Shown one piece after another: positions 8,403 through 17,550 of a stretch of DNA of 20,011 nucleotides; position 1 is the stretch's first letter, and each line of letters opens with the position of its first letter. The notes under the pieces were generated by a model. It was given only the letters and a program-made list of their open reading frames with translations. It made no database searches and had not been told where the DNA came from. Source of the stretch: a bacterium (GTDB lineage Bacteria > Vulcanimicrobiota > Vulcanimicrobiia > Vulcanimicrobiales > SCRA01); the NCBI GenBank assembly GCA_004298675.1, contig SCRI01000018.1:1-20011 (forward strand). Reading direction: 5' to 3'. A program made the position numbers and the translations under genes.

Positions 8403-8921
8403 ATGAAACCCGCTCAACCCGTCTACCCGTCCGCGGAGGAGTTCGCGCGCTTCTTGGGCGACCTGCGAGGCTGGAGGCATAAGACCCTCACGCTCGACGA
8501 GACCGTCAGCATGCTCGTCTCCCTAGCCAACCATCTGGTCGATAAGATCCAGCCGGCCACCGCCCAGGCCGTGGCCGACGCGGCGCACCGCCTCGCACCC
8601 GACCGCCCCGAGCCGCTCAACGCCCTGGGGCGGGCGTACGCCCAGAGCAGGAAGATGGGCGAGGCGGTCCAGGCGTTCGAGCGGGCCCTGGAGATCAATC
8701 CCAACCCCGCCTACGTGGCCAACCTGGAGCAGGTGGCGCGCAGCTACCCGGGCGGCGAGCCGGAGTTCTGGACCGCTACCCGCGCCGCCGTCCCTGACGC
8801 CAGCGCCGAGCAGGCGCTGAAGTTGCTCACCGACGAGCAGAGGCATTCCGTGGAGCAGTACCTGGCGGCGGAGAAGGCGCGCAAGGTGCTGGCGAAGCTG
8901 CGCACCGCGCGGCGCGCGTAA
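8403..8921 (+). CDS. TPR-containing protein upstream of tfuA
   Basis: A 172-residue, cysteine-free, soluble protein without a signal peptide. One clear tetratricopeptide repeat occupies about 70-103: EPLNALGRAYAQSRKMGEAV and then AFERALEINPN have the family's W/L-G-Y-A-F-A-P spacing. Helical stretches on both sides (35-65, 106-170) may be degenerate repeats. TPR proteins bind other proteins or peptides; no catalytic residues are seen. A gaagag element 5 nt before the ATG supports the start. The stop codon is followed after one base by the GTG of the TfuA-like gene, so the two are almost certainly co-translated. This suggests a helper or scaffold for the TfuA/YcaO chemistry, which is inference from context only. 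Confidence 0.8.
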   Translation: MKPAQPVYPSAEEFARFLGDLRGWRHKTLTLDETVSMLVSLANHLVDKIQPATAQAVADAAHRLAPDRPEPLNALGRAYAQSRKMGEAVQAFERALEINPNPAYVANLEQVARSYPGGEPEFWTATRAAVPDASAEQALKLLTDEQRHSVEQYLAAEKARKVLAKLRTARRA

Positions 8922-8922
8922 T

Positions 8923-9618
8923 GTGACGCCGTCAGACGCGGCGCCGGCTCCAAGGGTAGCCATCTTCGCGGGGCCGTCGCTCCCGCCGGAGGATCGCCCT
9001 CAGATTCCGGACTTCGTATATCTTCCGCCGGCCAGCCGTGGCGATGTGGAGGCGGCAGCCGAGCGCTACGATGCCATCGTCTTGATCGACGGCGTCTTTC
9101 ATCACGACCTCGCGCCGTCTCCGAAGGAGTGTTTGGTGGCCTGCCGCCGCGTGCCGACGATCGGCGCGGCCAGCATGGGAGCGCTGCGGGCGGCCGAGTG
9201 CTGGCCCTACGGATTGCGGCCGATAGGCGCGATCGCGCGCTGGTACATCCGCGAGGTCATCGACGGCGACGACGAGGTGGCGGTGTTGGTGCACCCGGAG
9301 ACGCACCACGCTTTGACGGTGCCGTCGGTGAACGTTCGCTATGTGGCATGGCTAGCGCGCCGGCGCGGCCTGCTGAACGCCGCGGAGGCCGAAGCCTTCA
9401 TCATCGGCGCCCGCAACGTGTACTACATGGACCGCTCCTGGTCGAGCGCCCTGGAATTCGTACCAGCGGACCGCCGCGACCGTATCCGCGAGATCGCGGA
9501 GCGCGAAGGCGACCTGAAGCGTTGGGATGCGCGGTTGGCCCTGAGGGCAAGTGCCAAGCTTACTGAAGCAGGCGGCTTGATGCATCCATTCCCCGAAATG
9601 CCTGCCTCGTTCGCCTAG
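8923..9618 (+). CDS. TfuA-like protein (YcaO partner)
   Basis: A 231-residue protein with the TfuA core. Visible motifs are AIFAGPSL (13-20), YLPPASRGD (33-41), IDGVF (55-59), GAASMGALRAAE (81-92) and the acidic DGDDEVAVLVHPE (114-126). TfuA was first described in the trifolitoxin cluster of Rhizobium. It assists YcaO enzymes in installing backbone thioamides, probably by handling the sulfur donor; homologues do this for methanogen McrA and for some RiPPs. The start is GTG at 8923, since the ATG at 8921 runs straight into a stop. No ribosome site is seen, so coupling to the TPR gene is likely. The cognate YcaO gene is not adjacent but on the opposite strand, about 3.1 kb away. Confidence 0.88.
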   Translation: MTPSDAAPAPRVAIFAGPSLPPEDRPQIPDFVYLPPASRGDVEAAAERYDAIVLIDGVFHHDLAPSPKECLVACRRVPTIGAASMGALRAAECWPYGLRPIGAIARWYIREVIDGDDEVAVLVHPETHHALTVPSVNVRYVAWLARRRGLLNAAEAEAFIIGARNVYYMDRSWSSALEFVPADRRDRIREIAEREGDLKRWDARLALRASAKLTEAGGLMHPFPEMPASFA

Positions 9619-9672
9619 CGAAGGCAGTGCGCTATCCCCCGCCGAATCTCGGATCTGCTACCAACCCACGTC

Positions 9673-9678
9673 TATGAT
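9673..9678 (+). promoter_or_regulatory. Possible -10 box before the small ORF
   Basis: TATGAT (5/6 to TATAAT) lies in the 74-bp gap after tfuA. No good -35 is found 16-18 bp upstream. It would place a start of transcription near 9685, so the small ORF may be expressed independently of the tfuA message. Such early initiation would clip the aaagagg ribosome site and favour the ATG at 9687 instead of 9693. Confidence 0.3.
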
Positions 9679-9692
9679 GAAAGAGGATGCAC

Positions 9693-9998
9693 ATGGACCT
9701 CCACGAGGCTCAATCTATTGCGTCACGCTACATCGCCCACATCATGGCCAACCCCGACGAACGGAAGACGTTCGAAACCTATGCGACGTCGGACGATTAT
9801 CATGCACCGATGGCGCAGCACATGCAGCGTCTGCTCGGCTTAGCTACCCCGCCGTCTAAAGACGACCTCGCCAAGATTCGTGAGGCGGGCGATACGCTTT
9901 TCCAGCCATTCGCCGCCGCACTCGAGCACCACTCACCCGGGCAGTTCGAAATGTATCAGCCCGCTAATCTTTGCTTTGTCAAGAAGACTACGACCTAG
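9693..9998 (+). CDS. Small protein beside tfuA, candidate YcaO-TfuA substrate
   Basis: I do not recognise this 101-residue family. The first ~80 residues look like three amphipathic helices (about 2-19, 22-48, 56-80). The remaining tail is less ordered and ends YQPANLCFVKKTTT, holding the only cysteine (C94) and three terminal threonines. A folded leader with a short tail containing Cys/Thr is how some RiPP precursors are built, and the neighbours are a TfuA and a YcaO. The precursor role is therefore a reasonable but untested inference; a small regulator or binding protein would look similar. The start at 9693 has aaagagg six bases upstream; an in-frame ATG at 9687 sits directly on that site. 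The 3' end overlaps the convergent regulator gene by 11 bp. Confidence 0.65.
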   Translation: MDLHEAQSIASRYIAHIMANPDERKTFETYATSDDYHAPMAQHMQRLLGLATPPSKDDLAKIREAGDTLFQPFAAALEHHSPGQFEMYQPANLCFVKKTTT

Positions 9999-12762
9999 TC
10001 GCCGCCCACGCATTGAGGCCGGCTGAGATCTGCCATCTCGCGACCTGAACGCGCGAGGTGACGTTTAGCTTTCTGAAGATGCTGGCAAGGTGCGCCTCCA
10101 CGGTACGCTCGCTCAAGAAGAGCGCCACCGCGATCTCCCGGTTGGTCTTTCCCTCGGCAACCAGACCGGCAATCTCCTGTTCCCTGAACGTCAAGCCCTC
10201 CTTTGCCTCGCGCCTCTTGGTCGGCTTTTTCTTGCCTCCGACAACGCGCGCGGGCGGCCTTATGTCAAGATCACGGAGCATCGCGCGCTCCACGGCATTT
10301 TCGGCCCCAACAATGCTATGCGCATAGGCGGCGTAAAAAGTGGCGCCCAGTCGCGCGAAGACGCCCGCGGCTTCTTCCAGGCGCAACTTCCCACTGCCCA
10401 CTCGAAGGGTCTCGGACGCCCAACCTGTCATCAGTAGATTGTGAGCTCTATGCCACGGTGAGCGCTCTTCAATCGTCTCACCTTGGGCGAGCATCTCCAG
10501 CAATCTAACGTCGCCGGCGCGTTGAGCGTAGAGCACGGCGAGGGCGGGGCACGAGGGCAGCCACCAAGACGCAGGCTTCGTCAGCGTCGAGCGGACCGCA
10601 TCGATGCGCCGCGCTGCTTCACGGCTGTCGCGTGCTACTTCGCCGGCCGCCCATGCTACGACGAGAAAGTCGCGGACGCTGGGATCTGGCAGACGCATCG
10701 CGCGCTCAACCTCTCGATTAACCTCCGCATCGAACACCGTCCCTCGATCAGTGAAGCCGGCGATCATCGCCGCAAGAGCGCACATCTCCCCGCGCGACGT
10801 ATCGGGGGCGGTCGCAAGTTCAACAGCGCTCAGCGCCTCCAAGACAGCACCGAAGTTACCACAGGCAATCTCGAGACTCAAGCTCCAATAGAGCATGCGG
10901 AGAAACCCCGTCCGCGCCCATTGAACCCGCGCCACCCTCAAGCGATCCGGGACGAGCTCACGCGCGCCGGTGACGCCGAACTCGTAGAGTTTCAACAGAA
11001 ACTCGTGCATCATGCATCCAATACCGAGATGTGTATTTCGCGAATCGGCCCGTACACGAGCGACATTGAGGGCCTCCAACGCCTCCTGATGGCCGAGGAG
11101 CCGCTGATCCATCATGAGATCCGCGAGCGCGAAGTTCGTCACGGCTGCATCCGACAGCTCCAGCGACTCCGCGACTCGCAACGCGTTCAGTGCATCCACC
11201 ACCTCCGTATCGACCCGGTCCGCGCTGATATAAGCCCAAATTGATCGAATGTCCCAGCGATCGCGCTCGTCCTCCATCGATCGAAGGAGACTCTCGTAGA
11301 TATGCCTGGCCCGCTCCCGATCGTGAAAGTACATGACAACCGTCCATACCAGAGCCATCGCGAGCGGGCCGAACCCACTCTTGATACCGAGCCGGCGCCC
11401 TTCTTTGATGGCTTGATCGAGTATGCTGAATTGCAGCTCCGGCGGCCGGTTCAGGGCTCGCAGAGCCATACCGTACTGGTTATAAAACGCCGCATGCTCC
11501 TCAATCGGCGGCTTTCTCACCTCGAGCGCCCGCGAGAAGCAGGCCTCGGCCGTATGCCAGGCGCTGGAGGCGATGGCCGCACGCGCGATCTTTAGGAGAT
11601 ACTCGTACTCGACGTCCTCCTCGCCGCAGGCGCGCGCATGGTAGACGATACGCTCGGCGAACTGCTCATCGGCGTGTGGCTGGCCCAGCAGAGCTCGAAC
11701 GATCTTTTGATGAAGCCCCTCGGGGAAGCGCACGATTGACCGCACGGCATCGCAGACGAGCGCATGAGAGAAGCGGAAGCTTCCTTCCTCCGCGACGAGA
11801 AACGAACCCACCAAGTGCGCGAGGTGATTCATCGCCACCTCGCTGCTCTGCGCCATGACCGCGGCGGCTTTGAAGCTCAACGGCTGCTCCATGAGCGAAA
11901 GGATCTCGAGATACGTCCGCACGTCGGGGTCGAGGCGCTTCATCTGATCCGACACGACGGCCCGCACGCTTTCACGCAACCCGTCGACGCCGTTGACATG
12001 CTGTGCGCGCGCCTCCGACGCCAGCGAGACGAGCGCGTACGGGAGTCCTTGAGAGCACTCGACGATCGATCCGATGACGGCGTCGCCGGCATCGGGGTAG
12101 ACCTGCGTGACGAGGGAGCGCGCGGCATCTCGCTCGAGATTCTCGAGGGCGATATCCTGCGGCACCGGTGCCTGCTGCTCATGCTCGGCGCTCGGGCGCC
12201 GTGCGAGGACGATCAAGAGCGGATAGACTGCCAAATCGGCGGCGGCGAGCTGCAGCGTCCTCAGACTCTCGCCGTCGATCCACTGGATATCGTCAACGAC
12301 GATGACGACGGGCAGATCGACGAGCATGCCTTCGAGCAGCGCCACGAATGAGCGCTGAAAGCGGAAGATATCCGCCTCAGCGGCGATCTGCTCCACGCCA
12401 AATCGCTCCGCAAGAACGAGGTCGCGGGCGAAGAGGGCTTGTTCGAGGCCGCTTGCGTACCGGCGCATGGGCTCGATCCCGACTTGATCGACGATCCGGT
12501 GGAGCAAACGGCGGGCGGTGGCTAACGGAACGCTCGACTGGCTCTCGTGAGCAGCCGCCTCGAAGATCGTACGTCCGCGTTCCGCGGCATCCGAAGCGAG
12601 CTGTGCCAGCAGCGCTGTCTTCCCCTGCCCGGAGACGCCGACCAGCGAGATCGTCTGCGCCACACGCTCGCGCGATACCCGCTCGAGTGCGTCGAGCAAC
12701 GCCTTTCGCGCGCCCTCACGGCCTACCAGCGGCTGACCGTTGTGCGTGGATGGCAGGCTCAT
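9988..12762 (-). CDS. LAL-type transcriptional regulator: AAA ATPase plus LuxR HTH
   Basis: A 924-residue cytosolic protein with the layout of large ATP-binding LuxR (LAL/MalT-like) regulators. The N-terminal STAND ATPase has Walker A GVSGQGKT (42-49) and Walker B VVIVVDDIQWID (152-163), preceded by the usual LVGRE motif (12-16). A long helical middle, about 350-820, probably forms TPR-like sensor repeats. The C-terminus has a LuxR/GerE HTH at about 856-910 (GLTFREQEIAGLVAEGKTNR, then LSERTVEAHLASIFRKL). The family activates pathway genes when a ligand or partner releases the ATPase. The ATG overlaps the ycaO stop by 4 bp, so the regulator is translated with the modification enzyme and is the best candidate controller of this locus. 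The inducing signal cannot be read from sequence. Confidence 0.93.
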   Translation of the reverse strand: MSLPSTHNGQPLVGREGARKALLDALERVSRERVAQTISLVGVSGQGKTALLAQLASDAAERGRTIFEAAAHESQSSVPLATARRLLHRIVDQVGIEPMRRYASGLEQALFARDLVLAERFGVEQIAAEADIFRFQRSFVALLEGMLVDLPVVIVVDDIQWIDGESLRTLQLAAADLAVYPLLIVLARRPSAEHEQQAPVPQDIALENLERDAARSLVTQVYPDAGDAVIGSIVECSQGLPYALVSLASEARAQHVNGVDGLRESVRAVVSDQMKRLDPDVRTYLEILSLMEQPLSFKAAAVMAQSSEVAMNHLAHLVGSFLVAEEGSFRFSHALVCDAVRSIVRFPEGLHQKIVRALLGQPHADEQFAERIVYHARACGEEDVEYEYLLKIARAAIASSAWHTAEACFSRALEVRKPPIEEHAAFYNQYGMALRALNRPPELQFSILDQAIKEGRRLGIKSGFGPLAMALVWTVVMYFHDRERARHIYESLLRSMEDERDRWDIRSIWAYISADRVDTEVVDALNALRVAESLELSDAAVTNFALADLMMDQRLLGHQEALEALNVARVRADSRNTHLGIGCMMHEFLLKLYEFGVTGARELVPDRLRVARVQWARTGFLRMLYWSLSLEIACGNFGAVLEALSAVELATAPDTSRGEMCALAAMIAGFTDRGTVFDAEVNREVERAMRLPDPSVRDFLVVAWAAGEVARDSREAARRIDAVRSTLTKPASWWLPSCPALAVLYAQRAGDVRLLEMLAQGETIEERSPWHRAHNLLMTGWASETLRVGSGKLRLEEAAGVFARLGATFYAAYAHSIVGAENAVERAMLRDLDIRPPARVVGGKKKPTKRREAKEGLTFREQEIAGLVAEGKTNREIAVALFLSERTVEAHLASIFRKLNVTSRVQVARWQISAGLNAWAATRS

Positions 12763-14072
12763 GAGATGACCCTCCGGAGCGCGGCGCCGATACGCCCATC
12801 CACCATGCCAGTCTCAAGGCCCGGCACGATCACGCGGGCAACGGAGATCGGAAGATCGGACGGCGAGAGATCGACCACGACCACCCGAGGTGCCCCGGCA
12901 GCGTCGACGGCATCGACCAGGGCGCGCAGCTCTCGCCCGAGATCCGAGCACGAGCGATCGGAGATGCTGTGCAGCGTCACGACCTGCGCGGGAGCGTCGA
13001 AATACCAGCGGCCGTGCGGCAACGTTGAGCGCCGGCGCCCATGATTTCCGTAACACGTCCTGGGATCGTCCTCGCGCAGCATATCTTCCCGTGCACCCTG
13101 AAAGTCGACAAGCCGCCCTTGCACAGCCTCGGTGATTGCCCGCATTGCCGCGTGCTCCGGCGACCACGAGCATCCCAGGCCGGCATGAGCGAGCGGCGGA
13201 TCGACTCCCAGCTGCCGGATGCTCGCGATGATGCACACAGGAAGGCCCGGCTCCTCGAGCGCCAACACGCGAATGCTCAGACCCGCGGCTTCGACCTCTG
13301 CAATCAGCGAATCGACGGCCGCACAGCCCGTCGGCAATCGGATCTCCTTGGCCACCGCATCGTCCACGAGCGAGGAGAAGTCGGGCTCGACTCCGATGCG
13401 GCGAGCGAACGCCTCGAGCAGGAAACGCGGGCGCAGGTGAGCACGTGCATGGGTCATCGACCATACGTGGCGCTCCACCAACTCGAAAAGCGCGTGGTAG
13501 ACGGCTTCGGTTAAGTTGTTGCCGGAGGCCAGGCCGTTGGTCGACGAAGTATCGAACGTCCGCGGGCCGTTCCAGGGGCAGCGTACCAGCGCCAACGGTA
13601 CCGGCACTACCTCTGCGCTGATCGCGTCGATGCCGGCGACGAACTGGCACGGGCGGTCCCAAGCTTCTTCGTAGAGTCCGAGGCCCTTGAGATCGATGCC
13701 ACCACCAATGTCGCACGGGCGCAGACTGACGGTAGGGGGATCGAACCGCGCGCAAATCTGCCGCTCCGTCGCCTCCATGACCGCGCTGGCTAGCGCGTGC
13801 TCGTATGTCGCGCCCTTGCCGCTGTAGTTGCTGATGACGTCGTCGGAGTCCGGAACGATCGCGCAGATCGTCGGGATCGCAACGCGGTCGAGGCGCGTGG
13901 CGTCGCTGATGCGTGTGATACCATAGCGCCTGCGAAGCTCGGGAACCAACTCCAACGTCCGGGCAAGAGGAACGCAGCGATCGTGAGAGCCCGCAGCCTT
14001 CGGCGACTCGGCGAAAAGCTGCGCGAGATCGATCGGCGGAACGCTGGATAGCGACTGTGTAACGGCCACCAT
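12759..14072 (-). CDS. YcaO-family ATP-dependent cyclodehydratase / thioamide synthetase
   Basis: A 437-residue YcaO enzyme. Family ATP/Mg-binding motifs are visible: SGKG (84-87), the E-A-x-E-R element (100-104), NGLASGNNLTEAVYHALFELVER (179-201) and the later GLGCSWSPEHAAMRAITEAVQGR (299-321). YcaO proteins phosphorylate the backbone amide oxygen, giving azolines with a Cys/Ser/Thr nucleophile or thioamides with sulfide. The C-terminus (RVIS) lacks the PxPxP tail common in azoline-forming members. With a TfuA in the window, thioamidation is the likelier chemistry, though not proven. No fused E1-like or leader-binding domain is present. The ATG at 14072 has a weak ribosome site. It forms an operon with the LAL regulator and diverges from a substrate-binding protein gene across a short spacer. 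Confidence 0.93.
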   Translation of the reverse strand: MVAVTQSLSSVPPIDLAQLFAESPKAAGSHDRCVPLARTLELVPELRRRYGITRISDATRLDRVAIPTICAIVPDSDDVISNYSGKGATYEHALASAVMEATERQICARFDPPTVSLRPCDIGGGIDLKGLGLYEEAWDRPCQFVAGIDAISAEVVPVPLALVRCPWNGPRTFDTSSTNGLASGNNLTEAVYHALFELVERHVWSMTHARAHLRPRFLLEAFARRIGVEPDFSSLVDDAVAKEIRLPTGCAAVDSLIAEVEAAGLSIRVLALEEPGLPVCIIASIRQLGVDPPLAHAGLGCSWSPEHAAMRAITEAVQGRLVDFQGAREDMLREDDPRTCYGNHGRRRSTLPHGRWYFDAPAQVVTLHSISDRSCSDLGRELRALVDAVDAAGAPRVVVVDLSPSDLPISVARVIVPGLETGMVDGRIGAALRRVIS

Positions 14073-14099
14073 CGTACGGAGTCATTTCCCGCAAAGCCT

Positions 14100-14127
14100 G
14101 TACCGGCCTGCAGGACGAGCCGGATAC
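14100..14127. promoter_or_regulatory. Inverted repeat in the ycaO / binding-protein divergent spacer
   Basis: gtaccggc (14100-14107) pairs with gccggatac (14119-14127) across an 11-nt centre, with one bulged A at 14124. It occupies the middle of the 58-73 bp gap between two divergent starts. It is a plausible two-way operator, for instance for the LAL regulator, but GC-rich dyads arise easily here. No clear -35/-10 boxes were found. Confidence 0.3.
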
Positions 14128-14145
14128 GGCGTGAAGAGCGCGGCC

Positions 14146-15558
14146 ATGCGTCGTCCTGCCTTCATCGCCGGTCTAACCTCGGCGCTTCTGGCACCATCAG
14201 CAGTGCGTGCAGCGCCGGGCGTGCTGCGCACGGCCACCATCCATGGCCTTGACGACCCCGATCCATACATCGGCACCACGCCGCTCTCCCCGATCATCGC
14301 GTGGGCCTACGCCGACGGGCTCGTTGCAACCTCAACCGGCGGCCGGATCGTACCGGCTCTGGCGGCGTCCCTTCCCGATCGCTCCGCGGACGGACTGGTC
14401 TATCGCTACACTCTTCGTCGCGACGTTCGTTGGCACGATGGCGCGCAACTACGCGGCCAGGACGTGCAAACGGCCTTCTCCCGCCTCAGCAAGCGCGCCG
14501 ATCTTCGCTCCACGCCGCCGTTTGACACCGTTGCCGACATCGCGGCAACCGACCACACGATAACTGTCCGGCTTCGCCGGCCGTTCGGAGCGTTCGTCGA
14601 GCAATTCTTCGGACCACGCGGAGCTTTACCACTGCCACTGGTTCGGCCGGGCCACATCGGTACGGGACCGTTTCAAGTTCAGCGCGTGCAGCCAAATATT
14701 TCCGCCGTGTTAACACGCGCAGGCGGGGGGCCACGCGGAGCAGCAGCGCTGGGCGAGCTACGGATCGAAACGATTCCAGACAAGAACTCTCTGCTCGTGG
14801 CCTACGAGTCCCATGAGATCGACGTCGCCATCTATCCGCCCACGGAGACCGCCGCTGCGTATGCCAAAGCCGGCGCGCGCATCTACCGCCAAGATGGCAC
14901 GACGCTCATGATCCTCGCTAATTGCGCCGCTGGGCCCATGGCGGACGCCGCATTGCGGCAGGCCGTCTTCGCATCGATCGATCGCCGCGAGATCGCGCAC
15001 GCCGCCTTCGGCGAGTGGCTGCAGCCTTCGGCGTTGCTCCCCGAGCCGCGGCTCCCAGAGTTGACAACCGCACGCGCGTTGCTAGCCCGGACGCGGCCGC
15101 ATCTGCGCATCATCGCGACGGAGGGTCACCCCGGCCAAGTTGCGCTTCTGGTTCAGCAGATGCTTCAAGACGCGGGAGCCTCCGTGGAGATCGTCCACAT
15201 CTCGATTCCGCAGTTCTTCTCTCCCGATGGTCCGGTTCACCGCGGATCGTACGATCTCACGCTGTGGTTCTCGGACCTGGCGACCCCGGATCTCCGCCCG
15301 ATCCTTGGCTGCAGAGCACCGCAAAATGTGTCGGGATGGTGCGCGCCCGCGTTCGACGCGCTCGAAGCCAGCGCTGCCGGAACGCGCGGAGCCGCCTCGG
15401 CCACCGCCCTCACGCATGCCGATGCTCTTCTCAACGACGCGGCTCCGATGCTGCCGCTCGGACGATTCCAATTGGCGATCGCGTCTAACCCAGACGTCTC
15501 TCTCTTCGTCGACGAGCACGCCCCGTTATTCATGCACGTGGAGCGCTGGCGTACCTAG
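14146..15558 (+). CDS. Family 5 extracellular solute-binding protein (peptide/nickel type)
   Basis: A binding protein of about 470 residues for ABC-type uptake of oligopeptides, nickel or similar ligands. The hallmark stretch YTLRRDVRWHDG, followed by DVQTAF, is clear, as are IVPALAASLPD and the C-terminal ALTHADALLNDAAPMLPLGR. The N-terminus MRRPAFIAGLTSALLAPSAVRA is a signal peptide with an AxA-like cleavage site and no lipobox cysteine, so it is a secreted or periplasmic protein rather than a lipoprotein. I chose ATG 14146 with gaagag 7 nt upstream; an in-frame GTG at 14131 adds five residues. At 470 residues it is shorter than the typical 500-540. No permease or ATPase gene lies nearby. 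Divergence from ycaO suggests it handles the modified peptide, a metal or a precursor. Confidence 0.85.
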   Translation: MRRPAFIAGLTSALLAPSAVRAAPGVLRTATIHGLDDPDPYIGTTPLSPIIAWAYADGLVATSTGGRIVPALAASLPDRSADGLVYRYTLRRDVRWHDGAQLRGQDVQTAFSRLSKRADLRSTPPFDTVADIAATDHTITVRLRRPFGAFVEQFFGPRGALPLPLVRPGHIGTGPFQVQRVQPNISAVLTRAGGGPRGAAALGELRIETIPDKNSLLVAYESHEIDVAIYPPTETAAAYAKAGARIYRQDGTTLMILANCAAGPMADAALRQAVFASIDRREIAHAAFGEWLQPSALLPEPRLPELTTARALLARTRPHLRIIATEGHPGQVALLVQQMLQDAGASVEIVHISIPQFFSPDGPVHRGSYDLTLWFSDLATPDLRPILGCRAPQNVSGWCAPAFDALEASAAGTRGAASATALTHADALLNDAAPMLPLGRFQLAIASNPDVSLFVDEHAPLFMHVERWRT

Positions 15559-15615
15559 CGATCGCGCGCACTCGTAGCTGGCGCTCTACGCCGGGTAAAG
15601 GAGCAATGAGCCGAT

Positions 15616-16590
15616 ATGCTGATCTTGCGCGAACAGGAAATCATCCCGCTGCTCCCGATGCGTGACGCGATCCACGCCGTGGAGCACGCGCTGCGCGCGC
15701 AAGCCGATGGCACGGCGCGCATGCCGCTGCGCATCGGCGTGCCGGCGCATGCCGGCATTCTGGCGGCGATGCCGGGCTCGCTCATCGCCGGCGACGCGGC
15801 GCTGGGCGCCAAGCTCGTGACTATCTTCGAAGGTAACGCGGAGCGGCGTATCCCCACGCATCAAGGCGCGATCATGCTCTTCGATCCGGACACCGGCACC
15901 CCACAGTCGCTGCTGGATGCGCGCTACCTCACTGAGGTGCGCACGGCCGCCGTCTCCGCCGTCGCCACGCGCCTGCTAGCCAACCCTGGCGCGCGCACGG
16001 CCGCCATTCTCGGCACGGGCGTGCAGGCGCGCTCGCACGCGCTGGCGATGCGTGAGGTATTGACGCTGGAAGATCTGCGCATCTGGGGGCGCAGCGCCAA
16101 ACATGCCCAGGAGGCGGCGGCATGGGCATGCGAGCAAGGGCTGCCGGCGCGCGCCGTTGGCGACGCCAGCGCCGCGATCCGCGGCGCGCAGGTCGTCAAC
16201 ACCGTCACCTCTGCCAAGGCCGCGCTCTTCGACGCTGCCGCCGTCGCCCCGGGCGCGCACGTCAACGCGGTCGGCAGCTCCACGCCGGTGGCGCGCGAAG
16301 TGCCCGGCGCGCTGGTCGGCCGTGCGCGCCTCTTCGTCGACTCGCGCGAGGGCGCCATGAACGAGAGCGGTGACATCCTGTTGGCCATCGCCGAGGGCGC
16401 GCTACAGGCGCACCCCGAGCTGACGCTCCTGGGCGACGTGCTGACGGGTCGCGCCCACGGACGGCGCTCGCCGGAGGAGATCACCATCTTCGACTCGCTG
16501 GGCATCGCCATCGAAGACGTCGCCTGCGCGGCGCTGGTGGCCGAGCGCGCCCGCGACCAGGGCCTAGGCGCCGAGGTCGATTTCCCATAG
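15616..16590 (+). CDS. Ornithine cyclodeaminase / mu-crystallin family NAD(P)-dependent enzyme
   Basis: A 324-residue enzyme of the OCD/mu-crystallin family, which includes ornithine cyclodeaminase, ketimine reductase and archaeal-type alanine dehydrogenase. K66 (GAKLVTIFEGN) and R109 (TEVRTAAVSAVAT) match the substrate-binding lysine and arginine, and GTGVQARSH (133-141) is the Rossmann dinucleotide loop. The position of the catalytic aspartate of true OCD (GGDCP in Pseudomonas) reads GSSTP here, with serine at 222. Ammonia-releasing cyclisation of ornithine is therefore doubtful, and an imine reductase or amino-acid dehydrogenase role is more likely. An in-frame TGA nine bases upstream fixes ATG 15616 as the earliest start; aaaggag lies 12 nt before it. 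It begins 57 bp after the binding protein on the same strand. Confidence 0.88.
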   Translation: MLILREQEIIPLLPMRDAIHAVEHALRAQADGTARMPLRIGVPAHAGILAAMPGSLIAGDAALGAKLVTIFEGNAERRIPTHQGAIMLFDPDTGTPQSLLDARYLTEVRTAAVSAVATRLLANPGARTAAILGTGVQARSHALAMREVLTLEDLRIWGRSAKHAQEAAAWACEQGLPARAVGDASAAIRGAQVVNTVTSAKAALFDAAAVAPGAHVNAVGSSTPVAREVPGALVGRARLFVDSREGAMNESGDILLAIAEGALQAHPELTLLGDVLTGRAHGRRSPEEITIFDSLGIAIEDVACAALVAERARDQGLGAEVDFP

Positions 16591-16596
16591 GTCATA

Positions 16597-16631
16597 CGAC
16601 ATATTTGTCGCAGATCTACTACATTTTTGTC
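16597..16631 (+). promoter_or_regulatory. Paired operator-like repeats upstream of the winged-helix gene
   Basis: GACATATTTGTC (16598-16609) and TACATTTTTGTC (16620-16631) agree at 10 of 12 positions and start 22 bp apart, about two helical turns. The first is the core of a perfect dyad, cgaca-tatt-tgtcg (16597-16610). The surrounding 65 bp are strikingly AT-rich for this genome. The layout fits autoregulation by the adjoining winged-helix protein, as in toxin-antitoxin operons. Confidence 0.55.
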
Positions 16632-16642
16632 ATAATTTGTGA

Positions 16643-16648
16643 TAGACT
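16643..16648 (+). promoter_or_regulatory. Possible -10 element for leaderless expression
   Basis: TAGACT ends six bases before the ATG at 16655, so transcription would begin at or next to the start codon. There is no Shine-Dalgarno sequence in the gap. The TANNNT-next-to-ATG layout is known from leaderless genes in Deinococcus and Actinobacteria. The second repeat (16620-16631) would cover the -35 position, allowing repression. Confidence 0.35.
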
Positions 16649-16654
16649 AACGCC

Positions 16655-16990
16655 ATGCTCGACCTACGCCCTCAAGTCTTTGGAAGCGTTGTTCGGACCA
16701 AGGTCCTCACCGCAATCGGGGCGCTCGAGGAAACCTACGCCACCGAGCTGGCTAGGGCGCTGGAAGTCCCCTTGCGCTCGGTACAGCGCATCGTAGAGGC
16801 GTTGGAGACCGACGGCATCGTTGCCACGCGCCTTGTCGGCAATCAGCGGCGCATTGCCCTCAATCCTCGCTGGTTAGGCGCCGCGGAGTTGCGCGCTCTG
16901 CTCGATCGCCTCATGCTCGCGGACGCCGATCTGCAGCGCCGATTGGGCGCGCTACGCCGCCGCCCCCGCCGCAAGGGGAAGCCGCTGTGA
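16655..16990 (+). CDS. Small winged-helix DNA-binding protein, probable antitoxin or autoregulator
   Basis: A 111-residue protein with a clear winged helix: TKVLTAIGALEETYATELARA (15-35), the recognition region VPLRSVQRIVEALETDGIV (38-56) and a wing TRLVGNQRRIALN (58-70). A helical segment follows (75-100) and then a very basic tail (RRRPRRKGKP). It resembles ArsR/MarR-like helix-turn-helix proteins without metal or ligand residues. The stop overlaps the GTG of the nucleotidyltransferase gene by 4 bp, so the two are translated together. Pairs of a winged-helix protein and a nucleotidyltransferase occur in AbiE-type type IV toxin-antitoxin systems and in related uncharacterised modules. The operator-like repeats just upstream fit an autoregulator. 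Function is inferred. Confidence 0.8.
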   Translation: MLDLRPQVFGSVVRTKVLTAIGALEETYATELARALEVPLRSVQRIVEALETDGIVATRLVGNQRRIALNPRWLGAAELRALLDRLMLADADLQRRLGALRRRPRRKGKPL

Positions 16991-17550
16991 TCGACGCGTC
17001 CTCAAGCCTGATTGACGTCGCATTCGCGGCTTCGACGGCGCTTGACAAAGCGAACATTTCCGCCGTATTGACAGGCGGAAGCGCGGCGACGTTTTACGCA
17101 CCGGCTGAGTATCAGTCCGGTGACGCAGACTTCGTGCTGAGTTTCTATGAAGACGGACCCGCCGTTGCACCGGCCCTAGCCCCGCTCGGCTTTACGCTCC
17201 AGGAAGGATCCTTCCGACACCCACGGACCGCGTACATCGTTGAGTTTCCTCGCGGCCCTTTGAAGATCGGCGACGATGACGTTCGTACTCATGCGACCTA
17301 TCGCAGAGGAGACGAAGTGCTCCACATACTGACGAGCACCGATACGATCCGCGATCGGCTCATGAATTACTTCGCCTGGAGCGATCTTTCTTGTCTGAGC
17401 GCTGCGGTCGGCGTCTACAAGCGACAGCGAGGCTCCGCGGATCTCAACGCGATCGAAGCATGGGTTGCGCGAGAAAGCAACGGTCCGTTTGCCAGAGACT
17501 ACGACCGCAAGTTTCGGATCTTCTTGGAGCTCATCGGGCGCAACCCATAA
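16987..17550 (+). CDS. Nucleotidyltransferase-fold protein, possible toxin of a two-gene module
   Basis: A 187-residue protein with the minimal nucleotidyltransferase signature: LTGGSAATFY (29-38; G30 G31 S32) followed by SGDADFVL (44-51), giving the paired acids D46 and D48. The C-terminal half (STDTIRDRLMNYFAWSDLSC, later ADLNAIEAWVARES) resembles the helical region of AbiEii/DUF6036-like nucleotidyltransferases. Such proteins transfer nucleotides to tRNA or protein targets in toxin-antitoxin or abortive-infection systems, though many are uncharacterised. It starts with GTG inside the stop of the winged-helix gene. Its codon use looks less GC-rich than its neighbours (GTATTGACAGGCGGA, for example), hinting at transfer. 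A toxin role is an inference; a housekeeping nucleotidyltransferase cannot be excluded. Confidence 0.78.
   Translation: MIDASSSLIDVAFAASTALDKANISAVLTGGSAATFYAPAEYQSGDADFVLSFYEDGPAVAPALAPLGFTLQEGSFRHPRTAYIVEFPRGPLKIGDDDVRTHATYRRGDEVLHILTSTDTIRDRLMNYFAWSDLSCLSAAVGVYKRQRGSADLNAIEAWVARESNGPFARDYDRKFRIFLELIGRNP

Follow-up and report, generated by a model that had tools for sequence, protein, structure and literature searches.

The window here analysed, a stretch of 20,011 nucleotides that makes up an entire contig of a 3.03-Mb genome with 98.5% completeness from the phylum Candidatus Eremiobacterota/Vulcanimicrobiota, harbours the single YcaO gene of that genome within a compact set of six open reading frames (ORFs). 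A TPR protein of 172 residues (8403–8921, plus strand; Pfam TPR) starts a run that continues with TfuA (8923–9618, plus strand; PF07812, E = 3.4e-28), the predicted sulfur-delivering partner of YcaO, and with a small ORF of 101 residues (9693–9998, plus strand; HMM family A1), the candidate RiPP precursor. Convergent with the latter lies a LAL/STAND regulator of 924 residues (9988–12762, minus strand) that combines a Pfam AAA_16 ATPase with a LuxR-type GerE HTH, after which come a YcaO of the TfuA-associated type (12759–14072, minus strand; PF02624, E = 1.2e-51) and an SBP of family 5, the oligopeptide/nickel type (14131–15558, plus strand; PF00496 (SBP_bac_5), E = 8.8e-40), with a signal-peptide-like N-terminus.

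All six ORFs lie where the initial annotation had put them, and its identification of TfuA on the plus and of YcaO on the minus strand is borne out by Pfam matches. The opposite-strand split that it described is equally real, with TfuA ending at 9618, YcaO running from 14072 to 12759 on the minus strand, and the small ORF and the LAL between them. The two genes are 3.1 kb apart and so not adjacent, adjacency being a genome-mining criterion and not a defining chemical feature. The stop codon of YcaO and the start codon of the LAL overlap as ATGA, behind GGAGGG, and on this sequence arrangement both genes probably form one operon. For the small ORF, a start at 9693 was preferred over 9687 because of the better spacing to its putative ribosome-binding site, AGAGG. 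In agreement with the initial annotation, the core module showed no gene for a protease, a transporter or a leader-binding (RRE) domain. The genome contains two genes of the ThiS family. PADLOC matched no system core gene, only the HTH part of the LAL to CARF models, and an anti-phage defence role was rejected.

Distribution and layouts of the locus

TfuA was found in 29 of the 149 genomes of the phylum, nearly all of them metagenome-assembled and with genes called by a simple script, and the neighbourhoods of these relatives were scored with family HMMs. Once the distant G005, G122 and G132 are set aside, the TfuA tree places the window protein and those of its order-mates in one clade (100/100 support) on a long stem. 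The locus is conserved across one order of the phylum, its presence within that order being patchy. TfuA is usually followed by YcaO, frequently by a class I methyltransferase, and by the small ORF, after which come a convergent LAL and a small PAS-like ORF; the methyltransferase and the PAS-like ORF are missing from the window. In 25 genomes the LAL sits next to the precursor and converges with it. OPT oligopeptide transporters adjoin the locus in three genera other than those with an SBP, and redoxin, peroxiredoxin and Kdp genes, neighbours in some genera only, were treated as flanking.

TfuA and YcaO are adjacent or fused in most relatives, the fusion (~650 residues) being present in 11 genomes. 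Both are separated in six genomes from four genera (G000, G029, G031, G057, G079 and G086), whose YcaO genes form one clade (100/99 support); on this evidence the split layout of the window is a stable sub-type of the order-wide locus. Thus, the arrangement that the initial annotation had not recognised is genuine but not unique to the window. What is special to it among congeners with an assembled locus is the YcaO inversion, seen relative to G029 and G031. The six genes do not behave as the fixed set that had been proposed, since the TPR protein is restricted to the genus of the window (orthologues in G029, G030 and G031, none in G032) and the SBP, an accessory and optional component, adjoins the locus in only three genera.

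One congener, G030 (L219, L220), was scored without YcaO and TfuA, yet both flanks and the SBP end are present. Its contigs break exactly on both sides of the locus, and a true absence was accordingly rejected; presence and absence counts from such assemblies are therefore lower bounds. In G046 and G048, a different large regulator-like gene (L048:3667-6147 and L049:10051-12540) takes the place of the LAL; in G055/G056, genes related to it encode GAF and NB-ARC domains and are located upstream of TfuA. Genus g2 has, beyond the PAS-like ORF, a second LAL-like gene of half length (L046:461-1825, L047:11153-12448).

The small ORF family

The HMM of family A1, constructed from 22 members, matched 31 copies of the small ORF in 26 of the 149 genomes, 30 of which lie at most 4.2 kb from YcaO; the exceptional match is on a 3-kb contig carrying a LAL and a methyltransferase. 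Two further and more diverged members occur in G057 and G079. Checked across the related genomes, the small ORF tracks the TfuA clade, both being present in 24 genomes, only TfuA in two, only the ORF in two, and neither in 121 (Fisher p = 3e-23, not a strict probability, as the genomes are related). Together with the linkage to YcaO, this co-occurrence upholds the initial reading of a compact RiPP-like YcaO-TfuA locus with the small ORF as the best substrate candidate. Values of dN/dS of ~0.04–0.22 within one genus indicate, at the sequence level, that the family is protein-coding and under purifying selection. No Pfam or NCBIfam family covers the small ORF, and none scores above cut-off for the window member.

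AlphaFold2 predictions, with an input of only 9 diverse sequences, display an ordered helical leader followed by a disordered tail for both the window member and a type-A member. In the window precursor the predicted leader spans residues ~1–80/88 (pLDDT ~90 over most of it) and the predicted core tail residues ~81–101, SPGQFEMYQPANLCFVKKTTT, with pLDDT below 50 for residues 90–101. A linked short precursor with a leader and a core is, in silico, present at the locus.

Two types of tail were distinguished. Among the type-A tails and repeat units listed, Gly is present in 29/29 and preceded by Val in 25/29, these tails having been anchored on the Gly by eye and by script, so that its position is descriptive and not an independent alignment result; the residues that follow are mostly hydrophobic, often MQ. 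The G096 precursor (L061:8097-8564) bears five tandem 14-residue tail units, four of them DAPSHVGxxFVVQx, whose copies differ partly by synonymous codons, and the tail of G061 is doubled. The window tail and those of its congeners, APEYYEMTLAGVLLCTTSH and SPEHYEMMLAGVIIGSFNK, constitute the second type; that of the window lacks the Gly common in relatives and holds Cys94, Ser81 and three Thr. Precursor tails of G046 and G048 carry FNGxNGP instead of VGxxxMQ. The five-core precursor of G096 shares its locus (L061:8097-8564, L061:8693-12052) with another precursor, which has a single core, and with two YcaO genes, while in G056 (L045:8367-9445) three tandem precursor genes with differing tails are found between YcaO and the LAL.

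Family and profile searches found no homology of the leader to known leader families. Nif11 (PF07862) matched one of the 22 small-ORF members at E = 0.0089, and homology to this leader was rejected upon an hhalign probability of 0.13% against a small cyanobacterial Nif11 set. A fold search of the PDB with the leader model gave no match at E < 0.001, and sequence matches to protein A and to designed helical bundles look like chance. Outside the phylum, no precursor relatives were detected in 72 other TfuA loci, nor in 25 whole TfuA-bearing bacterial genomes, the latter in a search without positive control.

Enzymes and cassette divergence between congeners

The window TfuA, for which 6xp8 is a solved relative, keeps all 30 near-invariant residues of its family. 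YcaO, whose nearest solved structure is MJ1094, has E100, E103, E197, E200, R201, E315, Q318 and R320 intact, and with the exception of F324 retains every residue shared by 90% or more of 100 YcaOs, those binding ATP/Mg included as judged from that conservation. The best NCBIfam matches of both proteins are to the archaeal McrA-glycine pair, NF033432 and TIGR03266, with scores below the family cut-offs (148.4 against 235.2 bits and 192.6 against 365 bits, respectively), and the score of YcaO to NF040716, the E. coli-type (uL16) equivalog, is 21.3 against a 700-bit cut-off. YcaO identity within the genus of the window is only 50–52%, which fits a co-evolving RiPP enzyme and not a housekeeping one, following the argument in PMC13063428.

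The window and its congener G029 are collinear at ~83–93% nucleotide identity as far as position 9533, which lies within TfuA; collinearity at this level resumes at 15616, where an ornithine-cyclodeaminase-family gene has its start codon. The 6.1-kb block in between (9534–15615, without strand assignment) comprises the TfuA 3' end, the precursor, the LAL, YcaO and the SBP. Its proteins share 29–52% amino-acid identity between the window and congeners, whereas flanks and TfuA mostly share 80–95%. For G029, the values are 31% for the precursor, 29% for the LAL, 50% for YcaO and 31% for the SBP, to be compared with 94% for Lon, 87% for TfuA, 85% for the cyclodeaminase and 95% for GroEL outside the block; between G029 and G031 the block identities are 52, 44, 62 and 63% for the precursor, LAL, YcaO and SBP, respectively. 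Trees are likewise discordant, with TfuA joining the window and G029 (100/81) and YcaO joining G029 and G031 (100/100), while the flanks of G030 are nearest those of G029 but its SBP end is 74% identical to that of the window.

Such divergence and discordant phylogeny point to replacement of the block as a specificity cassette. The simplest account of these sequences is that precursor, enzyme, regulator and SBP were exchanged together, or kept as a long-lived polymorphism, with TfuA outside; a block-specific burst of divergence would be a less simple one. Beyond the block, at 16590–17548, the window contains a two-gene module, in which a small HTH protein (16655–16990) overlaps a 187-residue protein (16987–17550) without Pfam match. 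This module is shared with G030 and cleanly absent from G029, where the flanks are joined directly.

Proposed function and relation to known systems

The locus is best read as a new family of YcaO-TfuA thioamidated RiPP, and we consider it likely that it makes a backbone-thioamidated peptide with the 101-residue protein as precursor. The combination of this precursor with a YcaO and a TfuA of intact conserved residues and with two ThiS-family genes in the genome leads us to infer backbone thioamidation of the tail. The folded helical leader would present the flexible C-terminal tail (~81–101), a backbone amide of which would be activated by YcaO with ATP, as YcaO proteins do (PMC13063428). TfuA, known to aid thioamidation, would then deliver sulfide; its source is probably a thiocarboxylated ThiS-like carrier whose gene lies elsewhere, such carriers being used where sulfide is scarce (PMC13063428). 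In keeping with this, thiovarsolin B requires no more than precursor, YcaO and TfuA (PMC6511847). Among relatives, modification would likely fall on the Gly of the APxxVG motif; its counterpart in the window is probably Asn92, which makes the site less certain there. Since the core module lacks an RRE, a protease and a dedicated exporter, maturation must rely on outside genes, among them presumably a protease that removes the leader, and the LAL, probably co-transcribed with YcaO, would control the locus.

An extension of this explanation, not an exclusive rival, is quorum-like self-sensing, in which the modified peptide would be released, re-imported through binding proteins or transporters and read by the LAL. 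That the LAL and the SBP share the fate of the precursor, diverging with it and with YcaO between congeners while TfuA and flanks stay alike, and that SBPs of peptide type and OPT transporters recur at the locus, hints at uptake and sensing of the product; almost every locus, besides, has a regulator linked to the precursor. Nonetheless, SBP_bac_5 proteins are common (10–14 matching stretches per genome), neither SBP nor OPT is universal, an exporter was not found, and LAL ligands are not predictable from sequence, so that self-sensing is held as a tentative and rather unlikely addition. Equally doubtful, although conceivable, is the fuller reading of a self-sensing system with a backbone-thioamidated ribosomal peptide as its signal, whose precursor, YcaO, LAL as receptor-regulator and SBP would pass between species as one specificity unit while a generic sulfur-transferring TfuA stays.

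It is improbable that the small protein stays uncut after modification and acts as an intact intracellular thioamidated protein in the manner of McrA or uL16, for instance as a partner of the LAL. A domain of ~80–88 residues predicted to fold, the lack of a constantly linked protease or exporter, and a gene nearly always 3'-convergent to a STAND-type regulator would agree with such a protein, but repeated tails in G096 and G061, a diverging tail and three copies in G056 are typical of released peptides. A further proposal is that YcaO and TfuA act on a conserved cellular protein, the small ORF being a linked passenger or an enzyme partner. Despite the precedents of McrA and uL16 (PMC5589413, PMC13063428) and the best, though far sub-threshold, NCBIfam matches to the McrA-glycine pair, the near-perfect linkage of the ORF, the patchy presence of the system in the order, the fast divergence of YcaO and the tail repeats render this very unlikely. 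Installation of azolines or amidines instead of a thioamide, for which the several products of the YcaO superfamily and the Cys, Ser and Thr residues of the window tail might speak, is scarcely credible given the TfuA partner, the best scores of YcaO to TfuA-type families and structures, and the many type-A tails without Cys, Ser or Thr downstream of the Gly.

Thioamides are rare in natural peptides. YcaO-TfuA RiPPs are a widespread and known kind (PMC8120280), and what appears new in the thioamidated RiPP family here proposed is the precursor family, its occurrence in this phylum, a regulator that accompanies it almost constantly, the split layout as a stable sub-type and the behaviour of the cassette; a literature search of open-licence papers returned none naming both YcaO and Eremiobacter. 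With its naturally fused TfuA-YcaO enzymes, its precursors of one to five cores and its compact leader, for which folding is predicted, the family is a tractable set for studying how YcaO and TfuA recognise a substrate when no RRE is present. A prediction drawn from the cassette is that YcaO, and not TfuA, determines substrate specificity, with the LAL and the SBP adapted to the product.

Regarding known systems, E. coli YcaO acting on uL16 (PMC13063428) shares the YcaO fold and the lack of an RRE, but it has neither TfuA nor a linked small ORF and its equivalog model matches weakly. The archaeal McrA-glycine pair provides the best NCBIfam matches and the nearest solved YcaO, MJ1094; scores fall, however, under both curated cut-offs, the TfuA found here belongs to a clade of its own with a long branch, and a small precursor takes the place of McrA. 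The TfuA-YcaO families of a global mining survey (PMC8120280), whose main text makes no mention of Eremiobacterota, include small precursor candidates and fused tfuA-ycaO genes, as here, although its abstract describes the pair as adjacent genes, unlike the split layout of the window. The thiovarsolin pathway of Streptomyces varsoviensis (varA, varY, varT) resembles the locus in its minimal set, consisting of a precursor, a YcaO and a TfuA, and in a precursor family with one to five core repeats (PMC6511847). None of its accessory var genes (amidinotransferase, ATP-grasp, heme oxygenase) was recognised at this locus, which differs from it in its core, in a helical leader of its own family, in the linked LAL regulator, in its phylum, and in a TfuA-YcaO pair that forms a fusion in 11 relatives but is split in the window.
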